DNA of 64,000 bases, from the NCBI RefSeq assembly GCF_014204915.1, contig NZ_JACHMH010000001.1, forward strand, positions 3,679,001 to 3,743,000, given 5' to 3'. The notes below the pieces were generated by a model. It saw only the letters and a program-made list of their open reading frames with translations, did not search any database and was not told the origin of the DNA. This DNA comes from Crossiella cryophila. GTDB taxonomy: Bacteria; Actinomycetota; Actinomycetes; Mycobacteriales; Pseudonocardiaceae. Shown one piece after another: positions 43,554 through 63,949 of the stretch (positions within the stretch are counted from its first letter, which is position 1; every line of letters begins with the position of its first letter). A program made the position numbers and the translations under genes.

Positions 43554-44551
43554 ACCCGATGCCGATCAACTTGGACGCCACAGACACCAGTACCGCACTC
43601 GGCGACTTCGCCGACGCCGCCGACGATGACCGGGTCGCCGTCCCGATCCCTCTGGCAGCCATCACTCGCTGCATCCAGGTGTGCGGGGTCGACGCCAAGC
43701 CCGAGGACATCGCCGAGCTGGCGGCCAACATCGACGACGTCGGGCTGCTGCACCCGATCGAGGTCAACCCGAACGGCGACGGCACCTACACCCTGATCAA
43801 AGGCAACAGCCGCCGCCTGGCCTTCCTCCAGCTCAAGCGGGAGACCATCCCGGCGTTCGTCGACCCGCGGCCCTCCAGCGAGGAGCTGCTGGCCGAGTTC
43901 ATCCGCGCCCAGGCGTCGGAGAACGCCCACCGCAAACACCTGACGATCCTGGAAACGCTGAACACCATCAACCGGCTCACCGAGCCGCCGTGCTCCTGCG
44001 GGCGCAACCAGGTCGGCCGGATCATGCGCCTGCCCGAGACCACGCTGAAGCGCTACTGGAAGGTCCACCGCACCCTCCGGGACCGGGGCCTGCCCTGGCT
44101 GCCGCAGGTCCGGTCGTGGCTCAACACGCCGAACGCCACCTGGGCGGTGGCCGCCGCCTTCGCCGCCGACCGGGGCCTGGAACGCGTGTTCGCCGCCACC
44201 GGCGAACTGCCCGACCTGGCACCGGCTGATCCCACAACCGAGGCGCGGCCCTCCGCGGAACCGGTCTCGGCCACGACGCCTGGGTCACCCGAACGGGGGA
44301 CCCAAATGGCCCCCCATAACGCACCCGCCCCACAGCCGCCGCCAGCGACCACGCGGGGAGTTACTCCCGCGCCCACACCGCCGACCGAACGCGCCGAGAG
44401 TTCCGCCGCGCGTGGCCGGCGACTGCTGCAACGGCTCCGGCGCCTGCTTGCCGAGCTGCACAACGTTGCGGCCGACCTGCCGCCTGAGCTGAGGGAGGAG
44501 ATCAGAGCCGCACTCGCGGACGCCGCTTCGAGGTTGATGGCACCGGAGTGA
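43550..44551 (+). CDS. ParB-like partition protein
   Basis: A 333-residue protein. The ParB N-terminal domain is visible at about 30-125, with DIAELAANIDDVGLLHPIEV, then YTLIKGNSRRLAF (the GERR-like box) and RAQASENAHRKHLT. A helix-turn-helix region follows (about 145-170). The C-terminal third has a Pro/Thr-rich linker (about 225-285) and a final coiled helix. It probably binds a centromere-like site, but no parS-like palindrome was found in the window by eye. Confidence 0.75.
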   Translation: MNPMPINLDATDTSTALGDFADAADDDRVAVPIPLAAITRCIQVCGVDAKPEDIAELAANIDDVGLLHPIEVNPNGDGTYTLIKGNSRRLAFLQLKRETIPAFVDPRPSSEELLAEFIRAQASENAHRKHLTILETLNTINRLTEPPCSCGRNQVGRIMRLPETTLKRYWKVHRTLRDRGLPWLPQVRSWLNTPNATWAVAAAFAADRGLERVFAATGELPDLAPADPTTEARPSAEPVSATTPGSPERGTQMAPHNAPAPQPPPATTRGVTPAPTPPTERAESSAARGRRLLQRLRRLLAELHNVAADLPPELREEIRAALADAASRLMAPE

Positions 44552-44587
44552 CGACCAACCTAACCCGTTGCGTGTAAGGAGAATTCC

Positions 44588-44812
44588 GTGTTTGGTGTCC
44601 TCATTGGACTGATCATTCCGGGTGGTGCCCAGTGGCACGCCCACCGGTTCTGGGCCGGACTCATCTTCCTCGGCTGTGCGGTGACCGTCGGGCTGTTCAC
44701 CTATCCACGGTTCGGGTGGCCAACCCTGCTGCTGGTGCCCGTGCTCGCCTTGATCGAGCAATGGGTGTGGCACCTCGACCGGCAGCCTGCGCGCGGCAGA
44801 AGCGTTACCTGA
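44588..44812 (+). CDS. Small membrane protein, 74 aa
   Basis: GTG 44588 follows TAAGGAGAATTCC. Two hydrophobic segments (FGVLIGLIIPGG and FWAGLIFLGCAVTVGLF), then LLLVPVLALIEQWVW. Probably two or three membrane helices. Not recognised. Its 3' end contains the CGCGTTACCT-type motif at 44801. Confidence 0.6.
   Translation: MFGVLIGLIIPGGAQWHAHRFWAGLIFLGCAVTVGLFTYPRFGWPTLLLVPVLALIEQWVWHLDRQPARGRSVT
44801..44811 (+). promoter_or_regulatory. AGCGTTACCTG motif
   Basis: Overlaps the end of the small membrane gene and points toward the Crp/Fnr gene at 45014, 203 nt downstream of TTACCT. The long leader (44813-45013) holds no other gene. Confidence 0.4.
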
Positions 44813-45013
44813 GCGGCTGTTCCCGGCACCCCGAGAACACGTACCTCGACACGTCCACAGCGTGCTCGGCGGTCCTGGCAGGACCGCACCTCCAGCCAGC
44901 TCCGGGCCAGGGAGCGTCCACGATCTTGTCACGAAGGTGGTGGAAACCCCTGGCGGCTCTACCGCTCCGGCCTTGAAGCCGGTGCAGTGGAGCCCTGGCT
45001 CGCCAGGGAAACC

Positions 45014-45724
45014 ATGCAGGACAACAACAACACGTCAACCGTCAACCAGATCCATCCGGCCCTGGTGTCCTCTTCCCTTCTCCGCGGACTCACGGAGGGC
45101 CAGGCGCAGGCACTGGCAGCAGAGCTGACGATGGTCGAGTTCCTCCCCGGGATGAGAATCTTCGGCGAAGGCACCCTCGGCGGCCACCTGTACGTGATCT
45201 GCACTGGCAAGGTCAAGATCAGTCAGTCGGTGGGTACCGATGCCCAGCGGCTGAAGCACCTCCTGGGGCCAGGCGACCTGTTCGGTGCCGCGTTCGAGCT
45301 TGAAAGCGGCCTGCACACCGCCACGGCAACCGCGACGACGGGTATCACCGCCGCACATATCCGATATTCGCGATTGAACGAGTGGCTCGTCGTGGCGCCG
45401 AACATAGAGCGGGAGATCCTGATCGAGTTGTCCGGACGTGCGATCGAGTTTCATGCTCGGCGCGACGAGCGGCACATGCTCAGCGTCAGGTCCAGGCTGG
45501 TGAAGCTGTTTCTCCTTCTGGGACAACGATTCGGCCGGGAGGTCGGCGGCGCGATCAGCCTCAAACACCACCTGGACCACTCCGAACTCGGTGACCTGAT
45601 CGGTGCCGACCGCCAGGCGGTGCACGGAGCCATTGCCGAGCTGATCCGCTTCGGGGTGATCTCGCGGAAACGCCGCGGAGTCAACCTGCTCGACCCACAG
45701 GTGCTTGCCCACCTGGCTGACTGA
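45014..45724 (+). CDS. Crp/Fnr-family regulator A
   Basis: A 236-residue protein. A cyclic-nucleotide-binding beta barrel spans about 20-135 (FGEGTLGGHLYVICTGKVKI, then LLGPGDLFG), with the long dimer helix and a C-terminal Crp-type helix-turn-helix (SELGDLIGADRQAVHGAIAE). The phosphate-binding cassette lacks the GExxLxxxxRSA consensus, so cAMP is an unlikely ligand. ATG 45014 is preferred over a GTG 9 codons upstream because CAGGGAA precedes it. A second family member follows directly. Confidence 0.8.
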   Translation: MQDNNNTSTVNQIHPALVSSSLLRGLTEGQAQALAAELTMVEFLPGMRIFGEGTLGGHLYVICTGKVKISQSVGTDAQRLKHLLGPGDLFGAAFELESGLHTATATATTGITAAHIRYSRLNEWLVVAPNIEREILIELSGRAIEFHARRDERHMLSVRSRLVKLFLLLGQRFGREVGGAISLKHHLDHSELGDLIGADRQAVHGAIAELIRFGVISRKRRGVNLLDPQVLAHLAD

Positions 45725-45737
45725 AGGCGATCACGCC

Positions 45738-46451
45738 ATGCAGATCATCGACAACGGCGGAGTGGTCGCGGCCCCGCTGCACCACAGGTTGGCCTCCTCC
45801 TGGCTGTTTCGCAGCCTCAGTCCCGCTCAGGCCGTCAAGCTCCAGCGGGAGCTGCGGTTGGCGACCTACCAGCCGGACGAACTGATGTTTCTCGAAGGCG
45901 AACACGGCGACCGGGCGCACTTCATCTGCAGCGGCACGGTGAAGACCAGCCGGGCGATCATCGACCGGCCGCGTTACCTGCGTGCTCTCCTGGGGCCCGG
46001 CGACCTCGTCGGCGTGGCGTCCTTCCTGGATTCAGGGCCGCGGGACTTGACCGCGGTGGCCGTCACGAAGGTCACCACGGCAAGCATCACCTGGGAGCAG
46101 CTGCGGACCTGGTGTGACCAAGTCCCGGCGATCGGTCTCGACCTCGCCCGCGAACGACACGCCCGCGCCCGGGAGTTCGAGACGCGAGCGTTGCACCTGG
46201 CGTTGCTGGACGCGTCGGCCAGGTTGGCCGGCCTGCTACTGGCTTTGGCGAAGCGCTTCGGCGTCACCGAGAAGGGAGTGGTCCGGGTCGAGCACCATCT
46301 CACCCAGGATGAGCTGGCCCACCTGATCGGCAGCAGTCGGGAAACCGTCTGCAAATCGATCCAGCAGTTCACCACCCGGGGCTGGATCCAGCCGACCGAA
46401 GGCGGGGTGTGGTTGTTGAAGCCGGACCTGCTCCTGCGAAGGGCACGCTGA
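45738..46451 (+). CDS. Crp/Fnr-family regulator B
   Basis: A 237-residue protein with the same layout: an effector barrel (MFLEGEHGDRAHFICSGTVK, then ALLGPGDLVG) and helix-turn-helix DELAHLIGSSRETVCKSIQQ. It starts 13 nt after regulator A, so they are co-transcribed. The two are clearly diverged rather than a recent duplication, and could form heterodimers or regulate different targets. It ends at the hairpin at 46473. Confidence 0.8.
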   Translation: MQIIDNGGVVAAPLHHRLASSWLFRSLSPAQAVKLQRELRLATYQPDELMFLEGEHGDRAHFICSGTVKTSRAIIDRPRYLRALLGPGDLVGVASFLDSGPRDLTAVAVTKVTTASITWEQLRTWCDQVPAIGLDLARERHARAREFETRALHLALLDASARLAGLLLALAKRFGVTEKGVVRVEHHLTQDELAHLIGSSRETVCKSIQQFTTRGWIQPTEGGVWLLKPDLLLRRAR

Positions 46452-48712: not shown

Positions 48713-49269
48713 ACAGCCCGCGCCGCCGCGCCGAGCTACCCCTTCGCCTGCTCGGCCGCGCATTGCGTCGCATCGAGCATCCGAGCACCCCGGCCAAACC
48801 TGCGATCAACGCTCCATCGACATGGTGCAAGCACATCGTGCTGGGCACGGTGGTGTGGGCGGTCTCCGCGTTCACCAGCTCGCCGGCCGTGCTACACGTC
48901 GCGTTGTACCTGCTGATCACCGGCATCGCCGCGTCCTGCCTGCTGGTCAACGCCGCGGCGGAAATCCGGCACGAAACCCGCTGCTGGGTCGCCGTGCTCT
49001 GCGCCGGAACCACCGCGGTCAAGCTCACCCTGGCCGTGATCGCCGGATCCGGCCCGCGCGGCGTCAGCGAAGCCTTCGGCGCGGAGTTCTCCACCACCGC
49101 GGGGAACCTGCTCGGCGGCCACCTGCCCTCGCTGTTCGTCTACGCGGTCATCGCCGTGCCCTTCGGCTGGAGCCTCTGGCTGGTGCAGAAGTGGCGCCTC
49201 TACGGCCGAACCCACCGCTACGAATCCCTTGTCCGGCACGCCCGACGACAAGACCACTTCCAACCCTGA
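48709..49269 (+). CDS. Membrane protein, 186 aa, with 3-4 helices
   Basis: Hydrophobic segments at about 45-62 (HIVLGTVVWAVSAFTS), 64-85 (LHVALYLLITGIAASCLLV), 95-112 and 135-155. Both ends are basic. Coupled upstream by ATGA; the ATPase gene starts 11 nt after its stop. It is a probable membrane partner for the HerA/VirB4-like ATPase. Family not recognised. Confidence 0.65.
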   Translation: MNSPRRRAELPLRLLGRALRRIEHPSTPAKPAINAPSTWCKHIVLGTVVWAVSAFTSSPAVLHVALYLLITGIAASCLLVNAAAEIRHETRCWVAVLCAGTTAVKLTLAVIAGSGPRGVSEAFGAEFSTTAGNLLGGHLPSLFVYAVIAVPFGWSLWLVQKWRLYGRTHRYESLVRHARRQDHFQP

Positions 49270-49280
49270 AGGAGAAGCCC

Positions 49281-52200
49281 GTGACACACGCAGTCCGTTC
49301 CGGCGACGCGCTCGCCGAGTTCCCCGACATGCAACTGCACTCCGCCGATGCCGTCCCCGACCGCGGCGACCCGAACGCGATCCACTACCTCGACTACCGG
49401 CTCAGCGTCTGCGATCACGGCGACCCCGACTGGCAACCGCTGATCAAGTCGGTGCGGTTCCTGCGCATCGTGCGCATGCCGGTCCTCAACCCGATGCTAC
49501 GCAAACGCGCCAACGAGTACGACGACCAACGCGATCTCGTCCGCGCCCTGTGGTCCCAACAGATCCACTACGTCTGCGTGCTCGGCGACACCGGCACCGA
49601 AGGCCACGGCGTGCTCAACCTCATGGGTGTGCAAGGCGTCGGCGCGACTCACGCCGAAGCCCGCGCGCAAGCCGACCAGCACTTCGCCGCCCTGTCCGCG
49701 CAACTGGTCGGCGCCTATCCGCAGATCCGATTCCGTGCACTCACTCCGCCGGAAGCGGAATGGTTGCTGCACAAGCAACAGCAGTGGTCACACGTGCTGC
49801 CCATCCGCGGCATCCCCATGCCGCGCCGCGATGTGGGCGAGGACCTGCGGATGCCACTGGCCGGCACCCACGAGTCCGGTGGCGAGTTCGAGGAGGGCAT
49901 CGAGGAACTGATCCGCGGCCTGCTCGGCGGCCCCGGCTACCTCCTGGTCCTCATGGCCAGCCCCGTTTCCCTCGACCAGATCACCTCCCGACTCTCCTCC
50001 GCCGCCGAGCAACTGTCCACGGTGGCTTCCCAGGTGCACGGGCAGCGCAGCATCTCCGCCGGGGTCGGGCTGCCGATGATGTTCTCCACCGCCACCGGGG
50101 ACGCCTACGGCAACGCGCACAGCTTCGGCGTCAACTCCGGCAGCACCGACAGCCTCTCCGCAACCCAGGGCACCACCGCCTCCACCACCGCCGGGGTCTC
50201 CGAGGCGGTGACCAACACCCGCGGCACCACCCATACCGAGGGCACCGGACTCACCGACACCCGCGGCACCAGCGAGGGCACCACGCTCAGCAAGGGGCTT
50301 TCCGGCGGTCAGTCCGACACCCAGGGCGTGTCCACCCAGCAGTCCCAGGGCACCACCCGCGGCGTCTCCACCGGCACCAGCGACCAGCTCTCCCACAGCC
50401 AGAGCAACACCATCGGCCAGTCCCAGCAACACAGCGTCGGCAGCACCGGAAGCCTCACCGGCACCCGCAGCGACTCCACCTCCGTAGGTACTAACGACTC
50501 CTACGGCGAGTCCACCGGCCACACCATTGGCACTGCCGAATCCCGCTCCCGCAACTGGGCCGAGGGCACCAGCCAGCAGACCGGTTCCAGCACCACGGCC
50601 GCGCACGGCGAGAACTCCTCACGCTCCCTGGGAGGATCCCTAATTGCCAGCGTGGGCACCAACTCCGGCACGAGTGACACCATCAGCCACGCCGCGAACC
50701 AGAGCCACGGCACGTCCACCGCCCTCGGCGGCAGCCAGGGAGTCACCGCGTCGGAATCGCAGAACCGCGGTACCAGCACATCCCACGGCACCAACACCTC
50801 CTACACCGGCGGGAATTCCCTGGCCGCCAGTCAGGGCTGGAACACTGGCGTCTCCGAGGGCACCAGCCAGCAGATCGGCAACACCGTCGGCCGCACCCAA
50901 GGCACCACCACCGGCCAGAGCCTGTCCACTTCGGACACCACCTCGGCCGGGCAGAGCGCCACCACCGGCACGAACCGCGGCTGGTCCGAAGGTGTTGGCC
51001 AGAACACCGGCACCCAGCAGTCCACCGCCGCCTCCCGAACCCACAGCGTGGCCAACCAGGAATCAACCTCCCACCAGGCCGGCCGCAACCACAGCATCGC
51101 CAACGGCACCAGCGACAGCCAGGGCCGCAGCCTCGGCGACACCTACGGCCGCTCCGACGCCCTCTCCGCCTCCGCCGCCCGCAACTCCCAAGTCGCCGGA
51201 AGCCTTTCGTTCGTCCCTACCCTCGGCATGGGCGCCTCCCGCCAAACCCTGGACGCCATGGCCGACCAGGTCAGCAAGATCTACACCGCCCAACTCCACC
51301 GCCTCGCCCTCGGCCTGGAAGAAGGAATGTGGCTATCCCAGGGCTACATGCTCGTCCCCGACGCCGCCACCGCCGCAGCCGCAGCGGGCCTGCTCACCTC
51401 CAGCTTCTGGGGCACCGGCAAGAAAACCCCAGTGCCACAACCCTTCTGCGTCTCCACCACCCTCACCACCACCCAGACCGACCACCTCATCGAACACGCC
51501 CGCGCCTTCAGTCCCTGCGCCCACGCCGACCGCCGGCCACAGGTCATCGAACCCCACTACTACGGCACGGCCTTGCTCTCCAACGAGGTCGCCGTACTCA
51601 GCACCCCGCCCCGCATCGACGTGCCCGGCATCGTGGCCGCCTCCGCCACCCGCCTGCCCACCCTGGTCTTCCCCCAAGCCCGCAACGGCCCCATCCACCT
51701 CGGCCACGTCGTGGACACCCAACGCGCCGTGGTCTCCCGCGAAAAGTTCTCCCTCCTCGTCGACGACGTGCACAACGACCTGTTGCACCCGCTGATCACC
51801 GGCTCCACCGGCCGCGGCAAAACCGAAACCGGCCTACGCCTGGCCCACGAGTGGCTGCAGACCACCCAAAGCATCCGCGACATCGAGGCCACCACCGGCC
51901 TGCCCACCCACCGCCAAGTCCCGCGTGGTGTCCTCGCCCTGGACCGCAAAAGCGACTGGCGCCGCCTGGCCCACAGCCTCCCACCCGAGCAAACCGGCCG
52001 GTTCCGCTTCTACGACCTCAGCAGCGAACCACCTCCTGGCCACCGCCCGCCCATCACCGGCACCGGTCCGTACCTGCGCTACAACCTGCTGCGCATCCCA
52101 CCCGGCGTGCGCCCCAACGTCTACCGCGACGCCATCTGCGACACCATGGCCAAAGTCGGCTCCCTCGGGCCCCGCGGCCGCGGCATCCTCTGGCAAGCCC

Positions 52201-53051
52201 TGCACACCCTCTGGTCCACTGCTCGCCCCGACCCAGAGCGCGGTGACACCGCCACCGTCTACGAACGCCCCGCACTGTCCCGCTTCGTCGGCATGGTCGA
52301 CCTTGCCGAGTGGGTCGACGCCCACCTGGAGGCTATCTCCCGCCGGGCTACCACCAGCAAAGAGCTGGTCACCGGCTACAACGTTATCCAGAACAGGTTG
52401 CAATTTTTTCACCGCGACGTCTACGGCTCCGGCATCTACCTACCCGACCCACCCGGCTCCGCCACCAGCGCCACCATCGAGGTCAGCGACCTGATGGGCC
52501 GCGGCGACTGCGTCGTGCTGGAAGCCGCCCACCTCGACGCCCAATCCGGCGCGCTGGTGCTGGCTGCGGTGTTCACCGCCGCCTTCGCCTACGCCCGCGA
52601 CAACATCGGCAAACTCTCCGAAACCCTGGTGGTGCTGGAGGAGGCCAACGACTACCTGCCGGATGCCCGCGACCAACAGGACGTTTCTGGGGTCACCCAG
52701 ACCGTCTTCGACCAGACCCTGTCCATGGGGCGCTCGTTGCGGCTGGCGCTGATGCTGGTGGTGCAGAGCCCGGAAAAACTGTCCCAGCAGGCCATCAACT
52801 GCGCCGGCCTGGTCGCCGTGCACTCCGCCGACAGCTACGAATCCAAACAACGCATGATGGCCAAGCTCGGCAAAGACGGCCGCTACGACCACCGCGACCT
52901 CTCCCAGTTCCTCTCCGAAATCCCCACCGGCTGGGCAGTCATCAAACCTCGCCCTACCCGTGACTGGATCGACGGCGCACCCGTGCTCATCGCGATCGAC
53001 CCAGTGGACTTCTCGCAGCCAAGCGACGCCGAGCTTGGACTGACCTACTAA
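49281..53051 (+). CDS. HerA/VirB4-like ATPase with large Ser/Thr/Gly repeat insert
   Basis: A 1256-residue protein; GTG 49281 follows GGAG. Residues 1-270 form a mixed domain with LRIVRMPVLNPML and MGVQGVGATHAEA, reminiscent of VirB4/TraC N-termini. About 275-635 is a single low-complexity insert of short GTSxGTS/SxSxGxS units (for example GTTHTEGTGLTDTRGTSEGT). Then comes a P-loop ATPase of the HerA/FtsK superfamily: Walker A GSTGRGKTET near 841 and Walker B LVVLEEAND near 1116-1124. The motor domain ends with MMVVQ-like LMLVVQSPEKLS (sensor region). It probably pumps DNA or protein at the membrane as part of a conjugation-like system. Confidence 0.75.
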   Translation: MTHAVRSGDALAEFPDMQLHSADAVPDRGDPNAIHYLDYRLSVCDHGDPDWQPLIKSVRFLRIVRMPVLNPMLRKRANEYDDQRDLVRALWSQQIHYVCVLGDTGTEGHGVLNLMGVQGVGATHAEARAQADQHFAALSAQLVGAYPQIRFRALTPPEAEWLLHKQQQWSHVLPIRGIPMPRRDVGEDLRMPLAGTHESGGEFEEGIEELIRGLLGGPGYLLVLMASPVSLDQITSRLSSAAEQLSTVASQVHGQRSISAGVGLPMMFSTATGDAYGNAHSFGVNSGSTDSLSATQGTTASTTAGVSEAVTNTRGTTHTEGTGLTDTRGTSEGTTLSKGLSGGQSDTQGVSTQQSQGTTRGVSTGTSDQLSHSQSNTIGQSQQHSVGSTGSLTGTRSDSTSVGTNDSYGESTGHTIGTAESRSRNWAEGTSQQTGSSTTAAHGENSSRSLGGSLIASVGTNSGTSDTISHAANQSHGTSTALGGSQGVTASESQNRGTSTSHGTNTSYTGGNSLAASQGWNTGVSEGTSQQIGNTVGRTQGTTTGQSLSTSDTTSAGQSATTGTNRGWSEGVGQNTGTQQSTAASRTHSVANQESTSHQAGRNHSIANGTSDSQGRSLGDTYGRSDALSASAARNSQVAGSLSFVPTLGMGASRQTLDAMADQVSKIYTAQLHRLALGLEEGMWLSQGYMLVPDAATAAAAAGLLTSSFWGTGKKTPVPQPFCVSTTLTTTQTDHLIEHARAFSPCAHADRRPQVIEPHYYGTALLSNEVAVLSTPPRIDVPGIVAASATRLPTLVFPQARNGPIHLGHVVDTQRAVVSREKFSLLVDDVHNDLLHPLITGSTGRGKTETGLRLAHEWLQTTQSIRDIEATTGLPTHRQVPRGVLALDRKSDWRRLAHSLPPEQTGRFRFYDLSSEPPPGHRPPITGTGPYLRYNLLRIPPGVRPNVYRDAICDTMAKVGSLGPRGRGILWQALHTLWSTARPDPERGDTATVYERPALSRFVGMVDLAEWVDAHLEAISRRATTSKELVTGYNVIQNRLQFFHRDVYGSGIYLPDPPGSATSATIEVSDLMGRGDCVVLEAAHLDAQSGALVLAAVFTAAFAYARDNIGKLSETLVVLEEANDYLPDARDQQDVSGVTQTVFDQTLSMGRSLRLALMLVVQSPEKLSQQAINCAGLVAVHSADSYESKQRMMAKLGKDGRYDHRDLSQFLSEIPTGWAVIKPRPTRDWIDGAPVLIAIDPVDFSQPSDAELGLTY

Positions 53052-53341
53052 ACTTGTTGAGGTTCCCCTGACAACGCGGAGGGTTTGGTCCGAGCTACAG
53101 GGGAATCTCATGTTGTCACGAAACTTGCTGTCGGTCGCGAGCGGGGAGTGCAAGCGGTTGCGACTAGGCGGACTATCTGATTTACCTGGAGAATTCGAGT
53201 AGGCCGCTTCTAGGCAGGGGATCTGCATCCCTCCCGACGATCCTCGCCGATTTCGGGCACCTCATCGTCTGACAGTAACGGATACAACGTGGTTCGCGAT
53301 ACTGGGTGGTAATCGGGTACCGCCGTAAGGAGACATAGTTG
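53052..53341. other. Lower-GC upstream region of the NACHT gene
   Basis: Contains an 8-bp inverted repeat, TTCCCCTG at 53063-53070 and CAGGGGAA at 53098-53105, which may end the ATPase transcript. The ribosome site AAGGAG is at 53327-53332. No gene seen; base composition is noticeably less GC-rich than to the left. Confidence 0.5.
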
Positions 53342-56300
53342 ATGTTCTCCAGTCTGCCTAGAGCTGTCCTGTCGGTGCTTGCGGCCGTGGGCATCCCAGT
53401 CGGCTGCGTCGCCTCCATCCCTGCGTTGCGTGACAACCCGTTGATCACCGTGGCGCTCATCTTTGCTTATGAATTCGGTGTGCTGCTCGCAGGGGTCGGA
53501 TCCGCCGTGCTGGCTCAGCTCCACAGCAGATGGAGCGTTCGCATTGCCGATGCCTTCGATGGGGCCGTGCAACGGCAGTTTTCCGGCTACACGCGTTTCT
53601 ATCTGCGCTACGTGGCAGCGGATACCCGCTACATTGATCTTAAGGGGGTCGCATCCAGGGCAGAGTTTACGCTGGAGATGAAGGATATCTACGTCCGCCT
53701 TGCATTGGACGCCGACCCGGCCTGGAAATCCAGCGCCAATCCGGTCGACTACGCTCCGTGGCGAACTGGGAACGGTGCGGAAGTTTGGGAATGGCTACGC
53801 GACGGACAGGGGACCGGCTCCGTCATTGTGATCCTCGGCCCGCCGGGGCGGGGAAAGACTACGTTGCTTAGACATATAGCGTTCGTCATCGCGAGCGGTG
53901 GGCGTACCGCATCCAGGCTCAAGGCGCCGCAGAAGATTCCTGTGATCGTGTACCTGCGTGATCACAAGGACTGGACCTTCTCGACGCCTGCAGACCTCGT
54001 CGACCTGATAATGCGGGCCCTGCCATCCATCGGCGGCAGGCCCCGGCCACCGCAATGGATCGAGAAGAACCTACGCCGGGGTCGTTTTCTGCTCTTGATC
54101 GACGGTCTGGACGAGATTCCGGACGCTGCTACTAGGAGAGCGATGACCTCGTGGATCGAGACGCAGGCCAGCGCGCAGGCGGGCAACCTGTTGCTGATCA
54201 CCAGCCGGCCATTCGGCTACCGTGACAACGAGATCATTGGTGCCACGGTGGTCAATGTTCAGGCGTTCACCGCTGGACAGATCGATGCCTTCATCACCCA
54301 GTGGTACCGTGCTACCTCCATCCGGTCCTATGGCGGCGACAACGAGTCGGCTCGCATCGCCGCGGCTCGCGGCGCTGCAGAGTTGTCCACGCGCCTTGGT
54401 CAAACCCGCGCGCTGCATGACCTGGCCTCCAATCCTCTACTGCTAACCATGATCGCTACGGTCCACCACTACCGGGACGCACTGCCAGGAAGTCGGGCCG
54501 AGTTGTACCGAGAGATCTGCGATGTGTTCCTCGGCAAGCGCCATGAGGCGCGCGGGGTCGTGCTCGATATGCCCGCAGCGCGCAAGAAGATGGTTCTGCA
54601 GGAATTGGCGTTCGCCATGATGCTGCGCGGAGTGCGAGACCTCTCTGTAGCCGATGCGGCCGAACTGGTTGAACCAGCGTTGACCAGGGTAGCAACCAGG
54701 ATCAGTCCGGCCGACTTCCTACGACGGGTTGAGGAGTCCAGCGGCCTGTTGCTAGAACGCGAACGTGGCCTGCTGATGTTCGCGCACTTGACATTGCAGG
54801 AATTCCTGGCTGCTGAGCACATCAGGGAGAACAAGCTGGGGCGCGAGCTGATCGGTTTCGTGGAGCACGACTGGTGGCGCGAGACGACGTTATTGTACGC
54901 GGCGAACGCGGATGCCACCGAAATTATATCAGCATGCTTGCGCGCTGAAGGTGAGCGTGAAGCAGAGCTGCTGGCGCTGGCCGTGCAGTGTGTTGAGGAG
55001 GCTCGGGAGCTTTCGCCGGAGACCCGGAGCTTGGTTGAACAACGACTTAACCCGCCCGGCCTCCGAGCCAACCCGGCGAGCAGACGAAACGCTGCCCGGG
55101 CGCGCCTATTATTGCGGGCCACCCGCGAACAACGAGTATCGCGCGATTCTTACATCGGGCCCCCCGTCACCTGGCTGGAGTACCAACACTTCCTCGATTC
55201 CATCGATGACTGCCGGGTTCCTGACCACTGGGCCGCCCCAGTATTCCCAGAAGGGGCCCAGAACGAGGCGGCGACTGGCATGCGTCACGACGATGCCCTG
55301 GCATTCTGCACGTGGTTGACCACGGAACTGGGGGCCGAGCACAAGTACCGGCTGCCGTCGACCCGTGAGCTGGACGTCATTCTCGGCAACAACGAGAGTA
55401 GCACCATCTACTGGAGCGCAAACGCGTTCGGTGCACACAGCGACCGTCGAGTCTCGCGCCTCTTTCGCGCCTACAATGAACAACGTGAACGCGTGCCGTA
55501 TCCGAGCGCAGACTACGAGCGCTGGCGTGGTGAATTTTTGCGAATCGCGAATGAGGACTTGGTGCGGGTGGACGAACTTGCCGACGGTCTGACGCTGTCG
55601 ATCGATGTGCCCGGAAGTGGAAGTTTCGCTGTTACGCTCATTGGTGATGAACTGCTTCCTAGCGAGATAGATTCGACTACTCCGTTGCCGACCAACTGCG
55701 ACCTGCGGCAGGTCACAAGAAAAGTGGCCGAGGTGGCCAGAATTGCGGATGCGTACGCCGACCTTGTGTACCCCGGTGACCTGAATGCGGACATCAGCGG
55801 GGAGCTCGCCCGCATGGGTGCCGGGCTAGTTGAAGTGGCCGGGCAAGCTTTCGATCGCGAGTCACGCCGGGCTCGACAAGACTTCAATGCACGGCAGGCG
55901 CGGCAAGCCGCGCGAATTATGGTAGTGGCGATGGCGAACGTGGCGGCCGCGCTACGAAATCGTTGGGTTGGTAACAAATTCACCGACCCGACTCGCGTCC
56001 TACGCCGTTTGGAGCCGAACCGCGAGGAAGATCGGCAGCTGATTGGCATAATGGCGATTTCGCTGTTGCATGATTACCTGCGAGCCTTATATCTTCAGTT
56101 GCTCCTGCATGAAGCTAGGGTCACAGGCGCGATCCCACCGCTCGAATCATTCCGCTATGTCCGTGTCGGTCAGCATGAGGGCGGGGTCACCTCCGTTCGT
56201 CACTACCTGGCTGAGATTGGGCACACTCTGAAGCGCACCCCTTGGCACTATCTGAAGCCGTTTGTTGATCGGATTATGGCCCTCGCATTGCTGCTGCTAA

Positions 56301-56839
56301 TTACCCCATTGTTTTTCATGATCACCGTTTTTGTCGTACTTGACTCCAGTGGGCCCGCTTTCTGTGTCCAGCGTTGCTATGGTCGAAAAGGTAAGACCTT
56401 TAGTGTAATTAAGTTTCGAACGATGTACGTCAATTCGGACGCGATCCGGATGCAACAGGAGGGCGTAAACGACAGGGCTACCCCTCTGTTCAAAATGCGC
56501 ACGGACCCGCGGGTCACCCGCGTCGGTAGGGTCCTTCGCAGGTACAGCCTGGATGGGCTGCCGCAACTGTTCAATGTGCTCGTAGGTCACATGTCCATCG
56601 TCGGACCGCGTGCCATGTTGCCGCAGGAGGTCGAACAGTACGGCCAAGACGCCGCGCGCACGCTCCTCGTCAAACCGGGAGTCACCGGGTTGTGGCAAGT
56701 GAGTGGTCGAAGCGACCTGTCCTGGGAAGAGTCGATTAGGCTGGAGCTTAGGTACGTTGAGGACGTATCCTTCGGTTTAGATCTGGCGATCGCCTGGATG
56801 ACTGTTAGGGCGATCGTCGTCGGCAGGGGTGCATATTGA
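53342..56839 (+). CDS. Membrane NACHT NTPase - SUMF1-like - bacterial sugar transferase fusion
   Basis: A 1165-residue protein. Two N-terminal membrane helices lie at about 5-30 and 33-60. A NACHT STAND NTPase follows: Walker A GPPGRGKTTLL at 166-176, Walker B LLLIDGLDE at 250-258, sensor LLLITSRP at 283-290, and the hallmark FAHLTLQEFLAAEHI at 480-494. A formylglycine-generating-enzyme/sulfatase-modifying-factor-like segment is at about 608-690 (WLEYQHFLDS, ALAFCTWL, YRLPSTRE). The C-terminus (about 965-1165) is a complete polyprenyl-phosphate sugar-1-phosphate transferase with membrane helix 978-1002, KFRTM at 1024-1028, RVGRVLRRYSLDGLPQLFNV, MSIVGPR and KPGVTGLWQVSGRSDLSWEE. ATG 53342 follows AAGGAG by 9 nt; a TTG one codon upstream is possible. 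Lower GC than its neighbours suggests transfer. Likely a ligand-switched envelope enzyme or a defence NLR-like protein; the function is inferred. Confidence 0.88.
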   Translation: MFSSLPRAVLSVLAAVGIPVGCVASIPALRDNPLITVALIFAYEFGVLLAGVGSAVLAQLHSRWSVRIADAFDGAVQRQFSGYTRFYLRYVAADTRYIDLKGVASRAEFTLEMKDIYVRLALDADPAWKSSANPVDYAPWRTGNGAEVWEWLRDGQGTGSVIVILGPPGRGKTTLLRHIAFVIASGGRTASRLKAPQKIPVIVYLRDHKDWTFSTPADLVDLIMRALPSIGGRPRPPQWIEKNLRRGRFLLLIDGLDEIPDAATRRAMTSWIETQASAQAGNLLLITSRPFGYRDNEIIGATVVNVQAFTAGQIDAFITQWYRATSIRSYGGDNESARIAAARGAAELSTRLGQTRALHDLASNPLLLTMIATVHHYRDALPGSRAELYREICDVFLGKRHEARGVVLDMPAARKKMVLQELAFAMMLRGVRDLSVADAAELVEPALTRVATRISPADFLRRVEESSGLLLERERGLLMFAHLTLQEFLAAEHIRENKLGRELIGFVEHDWWRETTLLYAANADATEIISACLRAEGEREAELLALAVQCVEEARELSPETRSLVEQRLNPPGLRANPASRRNAARARLLLRATREQRVSRDSYIGPPVTWLEYQHFLDSIDDCRVPDHWAAPVFPEGAQNEAATGMRHDDALAFCTWLTTELGAEHKYRLPSTRELDVILGNNESSTIYWSANAFGAHSDRRVSRLFRAYNEQRERVPYPSADYERWRGEFLRIANEDLVRVDELADGLTLSIDVPGSGSFAVTLIGDELLPSEIDSTTPLPTNCDLRQVTRKVAEVARIADAYADLVYPGDLNADISGELARMGAGLVEVAGQAFDRESRRARQDFNARQARQAARIMVVAMANVAAALRNRWVGNKFTDPTRVLRRLEPNREEDRQLIGIMAISLLHDYLRALYLQLLLHEARVTGAIPPLESFRYVRVGQHEGGVTSVRHYLAEIGHTLKRTPWHYLKPFVDRIMALALLLLITPLFFMITVFVVLDSSGPAFCVQRCYGRKGKTFSVIKFRTMYVNSDAIRMQQEGVNDRATPLFKMRTDPRVTRVGRVLRRYSLDGLPQLFNVLVGHMSIVGPRAMLPQEVEQYGQDAARTLLVKPGVTGLWQVSGRSDLSWEESIRLELRYVEDVSFGLDLAIAWMTVRAIVVGRGAY

Positions 56840-57036
56840 TCGGCCAGAGTCACGGCTAACGTAGCTGACATGGTCTCGACGCTGGTCGTCAGTGCATATA
56901 GTGCTGATAGTCAATAGGTTATTCCTAGAGATTGCTGCCTTCATCTTTGATCAACGCATCCAGTGGAGGTAATTTGTATTAGATGTAATTACGCATGGTA
57001 AGCGTACTGTGTACGGGGTCTCTCGGGGACAAGAAC
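56840..57036. other. A+T-rich intergenic region, right edge of the NACHT insertion
   Basis: Markedly A/T-rich for this genome (for example around 56890-57000). No hairpin, gene or repeat pair was found. The composition change ends near the CGCGTTACCT motif at 57037. Confidence 0.5.
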
Positions 57037-57047
57037 CGCGTTACCTG
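57037..57047 (+). promoter_or_regulatory. CGCGTTACCTG motif
   Basis: Full-consensus site, with 57 nt between TTACCT and ATG 57104. It lies at the point where normal high GC resumes after the NACHT gene. Confidence 0.55.
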
Positions 57048-57103
57048 CTCCGCCACGGCGTTCCACACCGGAGAGCCACACGCCTTACGCGGAGGAGAAG
57101 GTC

Positions 57104-57562
57104 ATGGACAACCCGCTGTACCCGCCCATGTCGCCAGGATCGATCGCGGCCGTGCTGATCGGCACCATGATCGGCTTGGTCCTGCTCGCTGCCGCGGCGG
57201 TGCTGCTCTGGCGGGCCGTGCATTCGGATCGAGCTGCTCGCCGAACCCGGGAGCAGATCGACATGCAGGTGGCCCGGGACGCCTACGAGCGGGGACTGGC
57301 AACCGGTCGGATGGAGCGCGAACGCCCACACGATGACCACCAGTTCCCCGTCGGCAGGGTCGTGGACGCGATCAACCAGCTGGGACGGCACCTCAGCGAC
57401 CAGCAACATCGGCTGGCACGTCAGCTCGACGAGATGCAGACCCAGCTGAGCCGGGCGTTGGTTCTGGCCGCAGGCGCCACGGTCCGCACTCCGACGCCGC
57501 CGAGGCCCGCCCCGGCACCGCCGCCGCAGGGCCCGGTTGGTCCGTCGACCGCGAAATCCTGA
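57104..57562 (+). CDS. Single-pass membrane protein with coiled coil, 152 aa
   Basis: One membrane helix at about 13-38 (SIAAVLIGTMIGLVLLAAAA), then a cytoplasmic or external coiled coil (VVDAINQLGRHLSDQQHRLA) and a Pro/Ala-rich tail. ATG 57104 follows GGAGGAGAAG. Not recognised. Confidence 0.65.
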   Translation: MDNPLYPPMSPGSIAAVLIGTMIGLVLLAAAAVLLWRAVHSDRAARRTREQIDMQVARDAYERGLATGRMERERPHDDHQFPVGRVVDAINQLGRHLSDQQHRLARQLDEMQTQLSRALVLAAGATVRTPTPPRPAPAPPPQGPVGPSTAKS

Positions 57563-57624
57563 TGCACCATCGGGTGCGTGCTGCAGGCATCTGCGGCACG
57601 CACCCACCCCCAGCGGCCACGGCG

Positions 57625-57634
57625 CGCGTTATCT
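57625..57634 (+). promoter_or_regulatory. CGCGTTATCT element of a probable leaderless promoter
   Basis: Ends exactly 8 nt before ATG 57643, the spacing expected between a -10 hexamer and a start codon that is also the transcription start. There is no ribosome site between them. Confidence 0.6.
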
Positions 57635-57642
57635 GGCTCGGC

Positions 57643-58530
57643 ATGGACAAGACCAATTTCGCGCTGCCCCACACCCGATCGCGCCCACGCCACCGAGTCG
57701 TGATCCTGGCCGCAGGCGTTCTACTCGCGGCGGGCTGCGGTATCCCGGACGACACGTCGCCTGGCGAGCTGACGGTGACCGCGAAGCCCGCGACACCAAC
57801 AACATCTCCGCCGGCCCGCGATCCCGAGCAACTCGAACCGGAGATCATCCGGGAGTACCCGCACGACCGGGACGCCTTCACGCAGGGGCTGGAGTTCGTC
57901 AACGGCAACCTGGTGGAGAGCACCGGACTGGTCGGCAAGTCGCGGGTCCGCGTCGTCGAGCTGAGCACCGGCAAGGTCATCCGCCAGGTCGAGCTGGCGC
58001 CGCCGCTGTACGGCATGGGGATCACCGCGGTGCCGGGCTTCGGGATCTGGCAGCTCACCTGGAAGGACGGCGTCGCCATCCTCCGCGACCCCGGCCACCT
58101 CGGTGAGATCCGGCGCGTCCGCTATCCGGGGCAGGGCTGGGGCATCTGCCACGACGGCGATCGGCTTGTCACCTCCGACGGCACCGACCGGCTGATCCTC
58201 CGCGACCCTCGCACCTTCGAGAGCACCGGCGAACTCGTGGCCCGCATGCCCGGTGGCGGGCGCGTGGACAACCTCAACGAGTTGGAATGCCTCAACGGGT
58301 CGATCTGGGCCAACGTGTGGCAGTCCAAGCAGATTCTCCGGATCGACCTGCGGGACGGCGTGGTCACCGCGGTCGCCGACCTCCGGCGGCTGGCCACCAT
58401 CGAGCGCCCGGTCAGCGCGGACGACGTCCTCAACGGTATCGCCGCCATCCCGGGCACGAACGAGTTCCTGCTGAGCGGCAAGCACTTCGGCACGACGTTC
58501 CGCATCCGCTGGCGAGCACGACCAAGCTGA
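57643..58530 (+). CDS. Glutaminyl-peptide cyclotransferase lipoprotein
   Basis: A 295-residue protein. The signal peptide ends in lipobox LAAGC at about residues 28-32, then a Thr/Pro linker. The remainder matches the plant-type glutaminyl cyclase beta-propeller (PF05096): EIIREYPHDRDAFTQGLEF, ESTGLVGKSRVRVVEL, and NELECLNGSIWANVW. The enzyme converts N-terminal Gln to pyroglutamate. ATG 57643 is preferred over an upstream in-frame ATG (57562) because of the motif at 57625-57634 and because the signal peptide starts there. Confidence 0.85.
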   Translation: MDKTNFALPHTRSRPRHRVVILAAGVLLAAGCGIPDDTSPGELTVTAKPATPTTSPPARDPEQLEPEIIREYPHDRDAFTQGLEFVNGNLVESTGLVGKSRVRVVELSTGKVIRQVELAPPLYGMGITAVPGFGIWQLTWKDGVAILRDPGHLGEIRRVRYPGQGWGICHDGDRLVTSDGTDRLILRDPRTFESTGELVARMPGGGRVDNLNELECLNGSIWANVWQSKQILRIDLRDGVVTAVADLRRLATIERPVSADDVLNGIAAIPGTNEFLLSGKHFGTTFRIRWRARPS

Positions 58531-59975: not shown

Positions 59976-60082
59976 GCATCGGAATCCTCGATGAACATCA
60001 CCCGATCGGTTGCTCCAGGCGAGTCAACTAGGTAACCGCCATGCAACCGCCCTACCGTCGTCAGCGGGGAGGGGAGTCCCAC

Positions 60083-62344
60083 GTGGACAAACAACGTGCG
60101 GTGAAGGCCGCAACCAGCACCTTCGGTGTAGAACTTCGGGCACAACGGGTCCTCAAAGGACTCTCGTTGAGCAGGCTGTCCACCTTGGTGCACTACGACA
60201 AAGGGCATCTGAGCCGCGTCGAACGCGGGTTGACGATGCCAACCGCTGAACTCGCCCGTGCCTGCGACGAGGCGTTGCAGGCCGATGGACAGCTGCTCGC
60301 GCTGCACGACATCGAGGCCGTGCGCCCGACTGCGGGACCGCGGCCAGCGCAACTGCCTGGCGCACCGACAATCTTCGTCGGGCGCTCGTACCACCTGCGC
60401 CGGATCACCGAACTCGTCGGTGACGACCAGCGGCCCGGAGCGGTGGCCATCGTGGCCATCGACGGCCCGCCGGGTGTCGGCAAGACCTCGCTCGCGCTGT
60501 CCTGGGCCCATCAGGCCCAGGACAGTTTTCCCGACGGAGTGCTCTTCGCCGACCTGGCCGGCTACGGCCCGAACCCGAATCCCGCCACACCGAGCGAGAT
60601 CCTCGAAGGTTTCCTCCGCGCCCTGGGCGTTGAGGCGGATCGGATCCCGGTCGAGGAGAGCCAACGCACCGCGCTGTACCGCTCGCTGCTCCACCAGCAG
60701 CGAGTACTTGTCGTGCTGGACAACGCGGTCGACTCCGGGCAGGTGCGTCCACTGCTGCCAGGTTCGGAAACCTGCGTCGTGGTGGCCACCAGCCGAACCC
60801 GGCTCTCCGGCCTGGTCATCACTGACGCCGCCGTGGGTATCACGCTCAACCCGCTCAGCCCGAACGAGTCCATTGGCCTCATCCGCACGATCATCGGAGA
60901 CCCTCGCGCCGATGCCGATCCCCAGGCAGTCGCGAGCATCGCCCACCGGTGTGCCTACCTTCCGCTGGCCCTCCGGATCGCCGCGGAACGCCTCGTCGCC
61001 CACCCCCGCCGCGCCGTCACCGAGCTGGCCACCGACCTGATCGCCGAGGGCGACCGGCTCGACGTACTCACCGCCGGGGACGACGACACCCTCGCGCTGC
61101 GCGCGGTGTTCTCCTGGTCCTACCGCACCCTCGGCGACAAGGAAGCGCTGCTGTTCCGGCAGATGGGCTTGCACCGGGGCCCGTACCTGAGCGCTGAGGC
61201 CGCGGCGGCACTGGCCGGTCTCCCGGTGGCGCGGACCCGGCTGTTGCTGACCCGGCTGGTCGAGGCCCACCTGGTCGAGCAGCTCGACTCCGGCACCTAC
61301 CGGCTCCTGGGCCTGCTTCGGCCCTATGCCTTCCAGCTGGCCGAGGAGACCGACCTCCTCGACGACAGCGCATTGGCCGTCGCCCGCCTGGTCCGCTGGT
61401 ACCAGTATTCGGCCCACGCGGCCTACCGGATGTTGACCCCGAACTGCCCCGACCTGCACCTGGCTCCGCCCGGCCACGGAATCCACCCATTGCGGTTCGC
61501 CTCCTATGAAGAGGCGGTGGCATGGTGTGAGGCTGAACAGGCCAACTTCGCCCCGGTCCTGGCCGCAGGACGCCAGGGCGGACTGAACATCGCCTGCTGG
61601 CAGCTTGCCGCCGTGCTGATCGGCTACTTCCTGCTCCGCAAACCTTGGGGAACCTGGGTGGCCACCCAACAGATCGGTGCGGAGGCGGCACAAGCTGCCG
61701 GCGACCCACTCGCCGAAGCCTGGGTCCGGGCCAATCTCGGCGAGGCACACCGTCAGCAGCGCCAACTTGACGACGCGCAACGCCACTTCGAGTTCGCGCT
61801 CTACCTCAGTTGCCACGAACCCGCGGCGCTGGGGCACTGCTGGGCGTTGGCGGGTATGGGCTTCCTCGCCATGGACCGCAAGCAGTACGGGGAAGCCGTC
61901 AACGCTCTCGACAAGGTAGTCGGCTACTTCGGCACCAGCGGCTACCTCTACGGCGAAGCAACCGTGTTCGCCGCCCTGGGCGACGCCTACCGCGGGCTGG
62001 GCGATCTGGACCGCGCCCTGTACTACGGCGGTCAGGCGCTGGAGCTGTTCCAGGTGATCCACGACCGCAAGTCACAGGGGGACACCCTCATTCGCCTGGC
62101 TCGCACCGCCGGCGCACGCCGGGAGTTCGACCTGGCGTACGCCTACTGCGCGGAAGCTCTCGCCGCCCACCGTGAATGCGGCGACCGCTGGAGCGAGGCG
62201 GCGGATCTGCAGGAGAAAGGCAACCTGCTGATACTGAGTGGCAGCGATGTGTCTGGCGCCCACAAATACTGGCGTTCCGCGCTGGAGATATTTGAGGATA
62301 TCGATCGACTCAAGGCTGCCGAGATTTTGGCGATTCTCCCGTAG
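60083..62344 (+). CDS. XRE - NB-ARC - TPR regulator (STAND family)
   Basis: A 753-residue protein. A helix-turn-helix domain (about 12-72: LSLSRLSTLVHYDKGHLSRV) is followed by an NB-ARC/AP-ATPase with P-loop GPPGVGKTS near 128-136, RVLVVLDNAVDS-like Walker B and VVATSRTRL sensor. TPR repeats occupy the C-terminal 250 residues. This is the design of AfsR/SARP-related STAND regulators. GTG 60083 is preferred because GGGGAGGGGAG lies 8 nt upstream; ATG 60041 would add 14 residues without conservation. Confidence 0.8.
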   Translation: MDKQRAVKAATSTFGVELRAQRVLKGLSLSRLSTLVHYDKGHLSRVERGLTMPTAELARACDEALQADGQLLALHDIEAVRPTAGPRPAQLPGAPTIFVGRSYHLRRITELVGDDQRPGAVAIVAIDGPPGVGKTSLALSWAHQAQDSFPDGVLFADLAGYGPNPNPATPSEILEGFLRALGVEADRIPVEESQRTALYRSLLHQQRVLVVLDNAVDSGQVRPLLPGSETCVVVATSRTRLSGLVITDAAVGITLNPLSPNESIGLIRTIIGDPRADADPQAVASIAHRCAYLPLALRIAAERLVAHPRRAVTELATDLIAEGDRLDVLTAGDDDTLALRAVFSWSYRTLGDKEALLFRQMGLHRGPYLSAEAAAALAGLPVARTRLLLTRLVEAHLVEQLDSGTYRLLGLLRPYAFQLAEETDLLDDSALAVARLVRWYQYSAHAAYRMLTPNCPDLHLAPPGHGIHPLRFASYEEAVAWCEAEQANFAPVLAAGRQGGLNIACWQLAAVLIGYFLLRKPWGTWVATQQIGAEAAQAAGDPLAEAWVRANLGEAHRQQRQLDDAQRHFEFALYLSCHEPAALGHCWALAGMGFLAMDRKQYGEAVNALDKVVGYFGTSGYLYGEATVFAALGDAYRGLGDLDRALYYGGQALELFQVIHDRKSQGDTLIRLARTAGARREFDLAYAYCAEALAAHRECGDRWSEAADLQEKGNLLILSGSDVSGAHKYWRSALEIFEDIDRLKAAEILAILP

Positions 62345-62620
62345 TCGAAGACTGTCCTGGGTGCCGATCTTGCCGCGCCGGCAGGCGGCCACGTCCTGCC
62401 TGTCCGGCCACCCACTGCGACCAGTCAGGACTCCTTGACCAGTGCATCGTGCACGCGGATCGCCGACCTGACTGCCAGCTTACGGTAGCTCCAATGGGGG
62501 TTGTATTCGTTGTACAACCTTACAACCCCTGTCGCAACGCCAGAAAATTCGACATAGTTTCTGTATGTGTTACGCAAGTCAGCACCTCTATTTGCAATTT
62601 TGTCCTGGCGGGGGTGCGTC
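62345..62620. other. Intergenic region before the Tad-like locus
   Basis: 276 bp, relatively A/T-rich from 62490 to 62610. It presumably contains the promoter of the following TadZ-like gene. No clear hairpin or CGCGTTACCT motif was seen. Confidence 0.45.
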
Positions 62621-63949
62621 ATGAGCAACGCCCGCCTCGTTGTCTGCGGACTGCCGAGTGAAATGGTTGTGGTCGGATTACAGCAATCACCGCTGAGCTG
62701 CTATCTCGAACCGGTAGCCGAGAACATCGACCAGCTTCGGCTCATGACCGACGGCGCCGACCCGCTCATTCGCGGCGGCAGGCCACTCGTCTTCGTCATC
62801 ACCGACACCGCCGGGCCACTGGCTGACGTGGCCACCTGGATCGAGCTGATGTCGGCTCAGCCAGCCGAGGAAGTCGCGGTGGTCCTGGTGGACACCGGTT
62901 CCGCGGACAAGCGCGCCTCGCCTGCGCACCAGGAGCGTGTGCTTGTCCACACCTGGGGCCAGCCGGACACCGAACCCGCCGGCCTCTTCGAGAGCGTGGG
63001 CACCGCGCTCGCACACCTGCAACCAGACAGTCACCCGGCTCCGAAACGCGTCACCGAGCCACATGTCCTCGTCGTGGCCACCACCCGGGGCGGCGCAGGC
63101 GGTTCCACCGTCGCGCTCTCCCTGGCCGCCTACCTCGGCGCCCAGACCACCAGGAGCAAGCGGGTCTGCCTGCTCGACCTGGACCTGAGCACCCCTGCGT
63201 TGGCCAGCATGACCGGCGCCACGCCGAACACCACCCAGCCGCTGCTGCTCGAACGCCACATCACCCTGGGCGTGATCAACCGCCACGTCACTCCGCTGCC
63301 CGCATGGCGAATCGACCTCCTGCCCGGCTGCACCACGCCGCTGGAGTCCCGATTCGTCCCGCCGGCCGCGGTAGCGGCGACCGTCGACCTCCTCGCCGGG
63401 CACTACGACCTCGTCGTCATCGACGCCGGCCGCCTCCGCTGGGACCTCGACGGTCCGGAGCACACCATGATCGAGTCCGCCAGCCAGGTCCTGATCGTCG
63501 CCGACCCCGCCCGCAACACCGTCAACGGCCTTGAACACCTCTCCACCACACTGTGCGGACCCACCGGCCATGACTTCCCAGCTCGCCACACCGGCCTGGT
63601 CTGGAACCGGGTCCGCGCCAGTCCCACCCCGGTCGAGTTCATCGACCAGCACGGCAGCGACCTCGTCGAGCTTGCCCATCTGCCCGACATCAGCGACAAC
63701 TCGGCACATGCCGCCACAACTGGCCAGGGCGGGCAACGTCCGCTCGACAACCCCGCCTGGGCCGCCAGGATCCACCTCCTTCTGGAAGCGGTCGCCGGAC
63801 CGGGTTGCGTCACTCCGGCCACCCCGGACGTCGCCGACCTGCTGCCCACCCTGCATCGTGACGGCACACCCCGCACCGAGATCCGGGTCCGCCGCAAGTT
63901 CTTGTCCCGCTTCGTCCTCACCGCGCAGACAGCCGGACGGAAGACGTGA
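62621..63949 (+). CDS. TadZ/CpaE-like pilus-assembly ATPase
   Basis: A 442-residue protein. An N-terminal receiver-like region (about 1-140) is followed by a MinD/ParA fold with the altered P-loop TTRGGAGGSTVALSLAAYLG, where the usual GKT lysine is absent, and LLDLDLSTPALASM. This combination is typical of TadZ/CpaE proteins that localise Tad pilus machinery, and in actinomycetes of the SsgA-like CpaE proteins. ATG 62621 is chosen over an upstream in-frame start lacking a ribosome site. A further gene overlaps its stop. Confidence 0.75.
   Translation: MSNARLVVCGLPSEMVVVGLQQSPLSCYLEPVAENIDQLRLMTDGADPLIRGGRPLVFVITDTAGPLADVATWIELMSAQPAEEVAVVLVDTGSADKRASPAHQERVLVHTWGQPDTEPAGLFESVGTALAHLQPDSHPAPKRVTEPHVLVVATTRGGAGGSTVALSLAAYLGAQTTRSKRVCLLDLDLSTPALASMTGATPNTTQPLLLERHITLGVINRHVTPLPAWRIDLLPGCTTPLESRFVPPAAVAATVDLLAGHYDLVVIDAGRLRWDLDGPEHTMIESASQVLIVADPARNTVNGLEHLSTTLCGPTGHDFPARHTGLVWNRVRASPTPVEFIDQHGSDLVELAHLPDISDNSAHAATTGQGGQRPLDNPAWAARIHLLLEAVAGPGCVTPATPDVADLLPTLHRDGTPRTEIRVRRKFLSRFVLTAQTAGRKT

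Follow-up and report, generated by a model that had tools for sequence, protein, structure and literature searches.

A NACHT NTPase and a phosphoglycosyl transferase core in one reading frame

We analysed a 64,000-nucleotide stretch (the window) of the genome of Crossiella cryophila, which is assembled as a single 10.06 Mb contig. On the forward strand, window positions 53342..56839 form a single open frame of 1165 codons plus stop that joins a NACHT NTPase to the core of a monotopic phosphoglycosyl transferase (PGT). The frame opens with an ATG at 53342, and a ribosome-binding-site-like AAGGAG lies upstream at 53327-53332 with a spacing of 9 bases. A previous reading made from the letters alone (the sequence-only reading) described an uninterrupted frame encoding two membrane helices, a NACHT module and a transferase with its own helix. 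The frame is open throughout, with no stop between the NACHT and transferase parts, and hydropathy, Pfam matches and motifs bear out the rest of this layout. The fusion of NACHT and PGT in a single frame is real.

All features of the gene lie on the forward strand. Hydropathy peaks at residues 8-26 and 34-52 mark a predicted membrane hairpin at the N-terminus (53363..53497), the usual effector position of NLR-like proteins. The NACHT domain follows at residues 161-323 (53822..54310; Pfam E-value 8.8e-16, 58.6 bits against a cut-off of 26.7). Both motifs of the NACHT NTPases are intact, Walker A as GPPGRGKT (residues 166-173; 53837-53860) and Walker B as LLLIDGLDE (residues 250-258; 54089-54115). 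Next comes a post-NACHT helical region (54311..55099), which includes the motif FAHLTLQEF (residues 480-488; 54779-54805).

The segment at residues ~606-691 (55157..55414) had been called SUMF1-like. As a single sequence it matches the FGE-like chain 7spq_A at E 0.0042, and the best Pfam hint is Lcl_C at E 0.12. A profile built from 25 family members matched 7spq_A at 1.4e-7, four lipoprotein/PorK-type chains at 0.008-0.01, and true FGE chains at only 0.46. The likeness to SUMF1 is thus weaker than the sequence-only reading put it. The Pfam FGE model gave no match to the window protein at E<=1; FGE matches below the cut-off were found in two relatives (L015 and L046). The recognisable part of the segment spans ~80 residues. 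We label it FGE/C-lectin-like and a putative sensor, a name that implies no enzyme activity.

A fast-changing helical linker (residues about 692-965; 55415..56236) leads to the transferase core at residues 972-1159 (56255..56818). The core matches the Pfam family Bac_transf at E 2.7e-56 (190.4 bits against a cut-off of 27) over model positions 1-178 of 179. A WbaP chain matches it at E 3.1e-40, and PglC chains align too. A hydropathy peak at residues 981-1009 lies at the start of the transferase, and a weaker peak lies at 1142-1160. D976 and P989 form the D-x12-P motif of PGT re-entrant helices (PMC12802240). Bac_transf domain, re-entrant helix and motif together place the core among the PGTs. 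The window protein has neither the four-helix bundle nor the PF13727 domain that large, WbaP-type PGTs carry before the core: hydropathy revealed no third or fourth membrane helix there and Pfam no PF13727 match at E<=1. A NACHT protein stands in their place.

Recurrence of the fusion and its parent family

Of the proteins at the places listed for 200 relatives, one besides the window protein matched across both halves. It comes from another family of the same order (genome G163) and is an intact fusion of 1188 aa with 41% identity across window residues 13-1165. Misassembly cannot explain a fusion that recurs at this divergence in another family. A third copy lies in Saccharothrix deserti (NZ_VKAB01000085.1; L019 1-15039), with 70% identity in its best segment. 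This copy is broken, being truncated at both ends and changing frame between its halves, and it is preceded by an rve-type integrase frame and followed by an IS4-type transposase frame. The same contig carries a group II intron maturase and a CHAT-domain protein.

Sampling of 390 genomes from the family, 397 from the order, 394 from the class, 386 from the phylum and 112 from G163's family yielded no further fusion; each genome contributed only 2 to 6 scored candidates, under strict cut-offs. The samples overlap, and together with the other searches they bring the number of genome searches to 1,886. The S. deserti copy came from a contig scan with exact peptide patterns of one protein, an insensitive method. 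Two stand-alone matches with long frames, L077 (1690 aa) and L078 (1028 aa), resemble ordinary transferases with an open frame upstream when read by eye, and we did not count them as fusions. Two peptide patterns run against viral contigs gave 31 pattern matches and 0 relatives. No phage or plasmid record had one place covering 80% of the protein, and no DNA match to window 53800-56200 was found in plasmids. The fusion is thus rare yet not private to the C. cryophila assembly, and the possibility that it existed in this assembly only fell with the intact G163 copy and the broken S. deserti copy.

The NACHT half belongs to a larger family. In the host's own family (f1), leaving aside the window and genome G237, which has a contig giving the same match as that of S. 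deserti, 52 places in 45 genomes match the protein at E<=1e-80, all ending at query residue 564-758. Because these matches all stop ahead of the transferase, the NACHT family manages without it. Pfam searches of 17 other family proteins found NACHT in all 17 and Bac_transf in one, the G163 fusion. The remaining 16 gave no Pfam match above the cut-off beyond the FGE-like part; L045 has a DNA_photolyase match below the cut-off at 738-798. A hydrophobic segment upstream of NACHT is present in 31 of the 32 members examined, both intact fusions among them, and the exception (L037) has a frame that starts late. The usual effector position is therefore already occupied in this family.

Identity falls from NACHT through the FGE-like part to the tail in six of six close pairs lacking the transferase (for example 0.87, 0.57 and 0.46). 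We chose these pairs ourselves, and in all six the highest identity lies in the NACHT or post-NACHT part. This is the pattern seen in NLRs, in which the NTPase is steady and the C-terminal part changes. Two adjoining, related but more distant NACHT paralogues, L003 and L006, lie elsewhere in the C. cryophila genome (contig 1, 4217802-4222348), one of them with a TAA inside the matched stretch.

The linker at 691-965 of the window protein is homologous to that of G163 (phmmer 1.1e-7, one target). A tail profile of the transferase-free members matches the window linker weakly, to about residue 936 (E 3.8e-4 overall, best domain 5.1 bits, two targets), and has no significant match to the G163 linker (0.052); this profile included relatives with seemingly out-of-frame (L040) or unusually long (L047) tails. 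The simplest reading, which is not proven, is that a whole parent protein gained the transferase core at its C-terminus.

The transferase active site and the history of the core

Monotopic PGTs use an Asp-Glu dyad (D93-E94 in PglC) together with Lys59, Arg88, Arg111 and a PRP motif (PMC12802240, PMC6441080, PMC10519829). The dyad is reported for all superfamily members (PMC10519829), and PRP is described as a substrate motif (PMC6441080). At the dyad site (56552..56557) the window core reads Asp1071-Gly1072, whereas 24 of 24 stand-alone cores have Asp followed by Glu, and WbaP chains also have Glu where the window core has Gly1072. At the PRP site (56606..56614) it reads Pro-Arg-Ala at 1089-1091, with Ala1091 in place of a proline found in 24/24 stand-alone cores. 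The window core thus contains neither the Asp-Glu dyad nor the PRP motif of active enzymes. The sequence-only reading of a complete, intact transferase is borne out for the length of the domain and is not confirmed for its intactness.

What the window core has in common with WbaP and PglC is the alignable core itself, D-x12-P and the residues Lys1051, Arg1066, Asp1071 and Arg1090. From their spacing, we equate Lys1051, Arg1066 and Arg1090 with Lys59, Arg88 and Arg111. It differs from both in lacking the dyad Glu and the final proline of PRP. Of 73 positions that do not vary among 23 stand-alone cores, 11 are changed in the window core and 4 in the G163 core, and the S. deserti core is changed at 2 of 36. 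When each of the 23 was left out in turn, 19 showed 0 changes, three showed 1 and one showed 5. The stand-alone cores were mostly the best matches of searches, a choice that favours similar sequences, and L057, a distant stand-alone core, was left out of the 73-position count. With a key catalytic residue lost, the window core may be a pseudo-enzyme that acts as sensor or bait.

We compared rates of change along the protein. Between the window and S. deserti, residues 240-400 are 80% identical and residues 401-580 74%; the FGE-like part has 60% identity, the linker 36% and the transferase 52%. The corresponding nonsynonymous divergences (dN) are 0.15, 0.20, 0.34, 0.70 and 0.40. The faster change of the C-terminal half in this pair may reflect selection for change or relaxed constraint. 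Exchange of the transferase as a module, raised by an unequal proportion of synonymous differences (pS 0.74 in the transferase and 0.53-0.63 elsewhere), is not claimed, because fourfold sites do not differ (20 sites in the transferase versus 102 from NACHT to FGE; p 0.61).

In the NACHT tree, built without L051, duplicate rows and rows shorter than 380 residues, the three fusions group together (support 76) within a set of 30 near relatives (96). In the transferase tree, the G163 core and enzymes from its own family make up a set of seven (98/97), and the window and S. deserti cores group together (80/90) beside f1 enzymes. All three fused cores sit on terminal branches that rank among the longer ones, and a single clade of fused cores is not rejected (approximately unbiased test, p 0.116). 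Each fused core has its nearest stand-alone core, of 24 compared, in its own family. The core closest to that of the window is L061 of f1 (62%), and the one closest to that of G163 is L050 from G163 itself (65%). These trees may reflect either one fusion followed by fast change or separate captures of the core.

Possible roles of the fused core and its genomic setting

Bacterial NACHT proteins, relatives of animal NLRs, carry various sensors, and the effectors described for them are nucleases, recruiters of proteases or undefined. The sequence-only reading saw an NLR-like sensor in the window protein, a view supported by its domain content, by the lateral-cargo signs given below (low third-position GC and a variable slot) and by published STAND-FGS conflict proteins. 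We conclude that the fusion is genuine, that it is rare but recurs, and that its product is probably a conflict protein. In bNACHT proteins the effector is N-terminal and the sensor C-terminal (PMC12169576), and C-lectin domains on STAND/NACHT proteins have been proposed as antigen sensors (PMC10907252). The PGT core stands at the C-terminal end, the place of bNACHT and STAND sensors, and we count this in favour of a sensing role.

The reading that we tentatively place first, short of even odds, is a membrane-anchored NACHT conflict protein, probably antiphage, whose sensor arm comprises the FGE-like segment, the variable linker and a captured PGT core. Beyond the observed fusion, its recurrence, the intact NACHT motifs and the loss of Glu from the window core, we infer the steps of sensing and triggering. 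The re-entrant helix would hold the PGT core in the inner leaflet. There the window core, as a pseudo-enzyme sensor, would bind one of three ligands: undecaprenyl phosphate, a UDP-sugar, or a protein by which a phage targets the initiating transferase of the host. Altered binding at the core would release NACHT, which would oligomerise with ATP and drive the N-terminal hairpins to perturb the membrane, so that the infected cell would be stopped.

Such a mechanism would resemble the integrated decoys of plant NLRs, in which an added domain resembles a pathogen target (PMC4246468). The parallel is one of principle: the window protein is bacterial and membrane-bound, and no invader protein is known to act on its domain. 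A bolder version, which we regard as rather improbable, would see here an integrated decoy, the first in a bacterial NLR: a membrane-bound NACHT protein would bear at its sensor end a copy of the host's initiating PGT, disarmed at the dyad in the window lineage. This decoy would watch for phage interference with the loading of sugar onto undecaprenyl phosphate and respond by making the membrane collapse. G163 and S. deserti would then have less disarmed stages of one strategy, their cores possibly captured separately. Should the core be bait, decoys of the plant NLR kind would have arisen in bacteria as well, and some phage product acting on the host's initiating transferase would be predicted. 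A NACHT protein carrying the core that opens lipid-linked glycan synthesis would in any case tie immunity to the undecaprenyl-phosphate pathway, as weapon or as watched target.

The closest published relatives are conflict proteins. STAND-FGS proteins (PMC8195603; Thiohalocapsa targets of diversity-generating retroelements, PMC10907252) have a central STAND/NACHT NTPase followed by an FGE/C-lectin fold proposed to sense invaders. The window protein resembles them in this order of parts, but its putative FGE-like segment is short, and it has an N-terminal membrane hairpin and a C-terminal PGT core. NACHT/STAND-GT4 fusions (PMC8195603) are predicted conflict proteins that share a sugar-transferring domain, often C-terminal to the STAND NTPase. 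GT4 domains consist of two Rossmann subdomains, unlike the membrane-embedded monotopic PGT of the window protein with its lost catalytic dyad. The bNACHT proteins (PMC12169576; NCBIfam EruA) share the NACHT module, and similarity to EruA falls in two stretches, the best at 354-494 (E 2.3e-10, 39 bits against a cut-off of 1000). The window protein differs in its membrane hairpin and transferase, no nuclease domain was found in it, and its defence role is putative. We found no NACHT-PGT fusion in literature searches that covered few subscription journals, so that absence is no proof. The sequence-only reading took a NACHT protein with a sugar-phosphate transferase as effector to be apparently undescribed, which calls for care: NACHT joined to a sugar-transferring domain is already described with GT4, and it is the PGT version that was not found in print.

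Several observations weigh against the sensor or bait reading. The Asp-Glu dyad is present in both G163 and S. deserti, and PRP also in G163, so the loss of Glu is special to the window copy and a pseudo-enzyme is no shared trait. Between the window and G163, identity is 51% in the transferase, 47% in NACHT, 49% in the post-NACHT region, 45% in the FGE-like part and 25% in the linker. A transferase as conserved as NACHT over this longer span speaks for a constrained, perhaps working domain, although six stand-alone cores share 68-88% identity pairwise. The speed of the C-terminal half relative to S. deserti may be relaxed constraint, and that copy is broken. Kaur et al. (PMC8195603) call GT4 domains C-terminal to NACHT effectors, so a C-terminal position is no proof of a sensor. 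PADLOC gave weak partial matches at most on ten window neighbours, some to TIR-effector or TPR models. We also count here an AlphaFold2 model of the whole protein with two Saccharothrix pieces, discarded at a mean pLDDT of 36.1. On the window protein itself, PADLOC gave a partial mad8 match over the P-loop (E 5.4e-5).

Some of these points favour the transferase as an effector, which we rank second and consider unlikely. Once activated, it would charge undecaprenyl phosphate with sugar-1-phosphate, and this would either starve the synthesis of peptidoglycan or change the envelope. The dyad and PRP kept in G163, the dyad kept in S. deserti and a transferase conserved like NACHT between window and G163 all fit this role. 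WbaP is active without its N-terminal membrane helices (PMC6133551), a partner protein can switch on a PGT (PMC12802240), and GT4 domains offer the precedent of C-terminal glycosyltransferase effectors on NACHT (PMC8195603). Against it stand the loss of the catalytic Glu from the window copy, which is also changed at 11 of the 73 invariant positions, the membrane segment that occupies the usual effector position, and the 52 family matches in 45 other genomes, all of which end before the transferase. The sequence-only proposal of a switch acting on the undecaprenyl-phosphate pool is thus unsupported for the window protein, because its Glu is lost, the core lies at the sensor end and the effector position is taken. 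An effector role may apply to the G163 protein, since its dyad is intact.

The genomic setting bears on how the fusion spread. GC content at third codon positions (GC3) is 0.69 in the fusion gene and 0.72-0.88 in eleven other window frames. The G163 fusion gene, which lies between KdpC and an RNB exonuclease gene, has a GC3 of 0.63 versus 0.91-0.96 for nearby KdpC, E1-E2 ATPase, MMPL and histidine-kinase genes. In C. cryophila the fusion gene is flanked by a frame with weak HerA matches on one side and a glutamine cyclotransferase on the other. We compared this slot (53055-57825) with six congeneric regions. Three of them (L088, L090, L092) have both flanks, separated by other sequence, and the remaining three have only the left flank; none of the six has a match to the fusion gene at that slot. 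The slot holds helix-turn-helix (HTH) and beta-helix proteins in L088 and a formyl-transferase-domain protein in L090, and it looks like an insertion hotspot. Because of its low GC3 and a slot occupied by other genes in congeners, the fusion gene behaves like lateral cargo; a defence island is not evident.

In another reading, which we rank third and hold to be improbable, the core was joined to the NACHT protein by recombination, is inessential and is decaying. The S. deserti copy, cut at both ends and out of frame between integrase and transposase frames, is already broken, the three fused cores have long end branches, and the window core has lost invariant residues. Decay sits poorly with open frames of 1165 and 1188 codons kept in two families at 41% identity, with a transferase part 51% identical between them and with changes at only 4/73 invariant positions in G163. 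Least probable of all, and very unlikely, is a NACHT switch that tunes the start of the host's own exopolysaccharide synthesis: a PGT core is the initiating enzyme of polysaccharide pathways and an ordinary homologue is encoded elsewhere in the host genome (58% identity across residues 968-1165), but occurrence is sporadic, GC3 is low, the window copy has lost Glu, and the Pfam matches of ten window frames and five beside the G163 copy include no polysaccharide-gene domain, although frames without a match may still include one.

The adjoining frame with HerA-type matches (48822-53051, forward strand) encodes 1409 aa, with the weak matches near its C-terminus and a stretch rich in Ser/Thr/Gly/Gln in the middle. 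It has homologues in 4/4 congeners searched at 66-91% identity, with two copies in two of them. Farther upstream, 43550-46451 encodes a ParB_N protein and a Crp-like regulator. Downstream, an HTH-NB-ARC-TPR regulator (60041-62344, forward strand) is followed by a ParA-like protein (62567-63949, forward strand).

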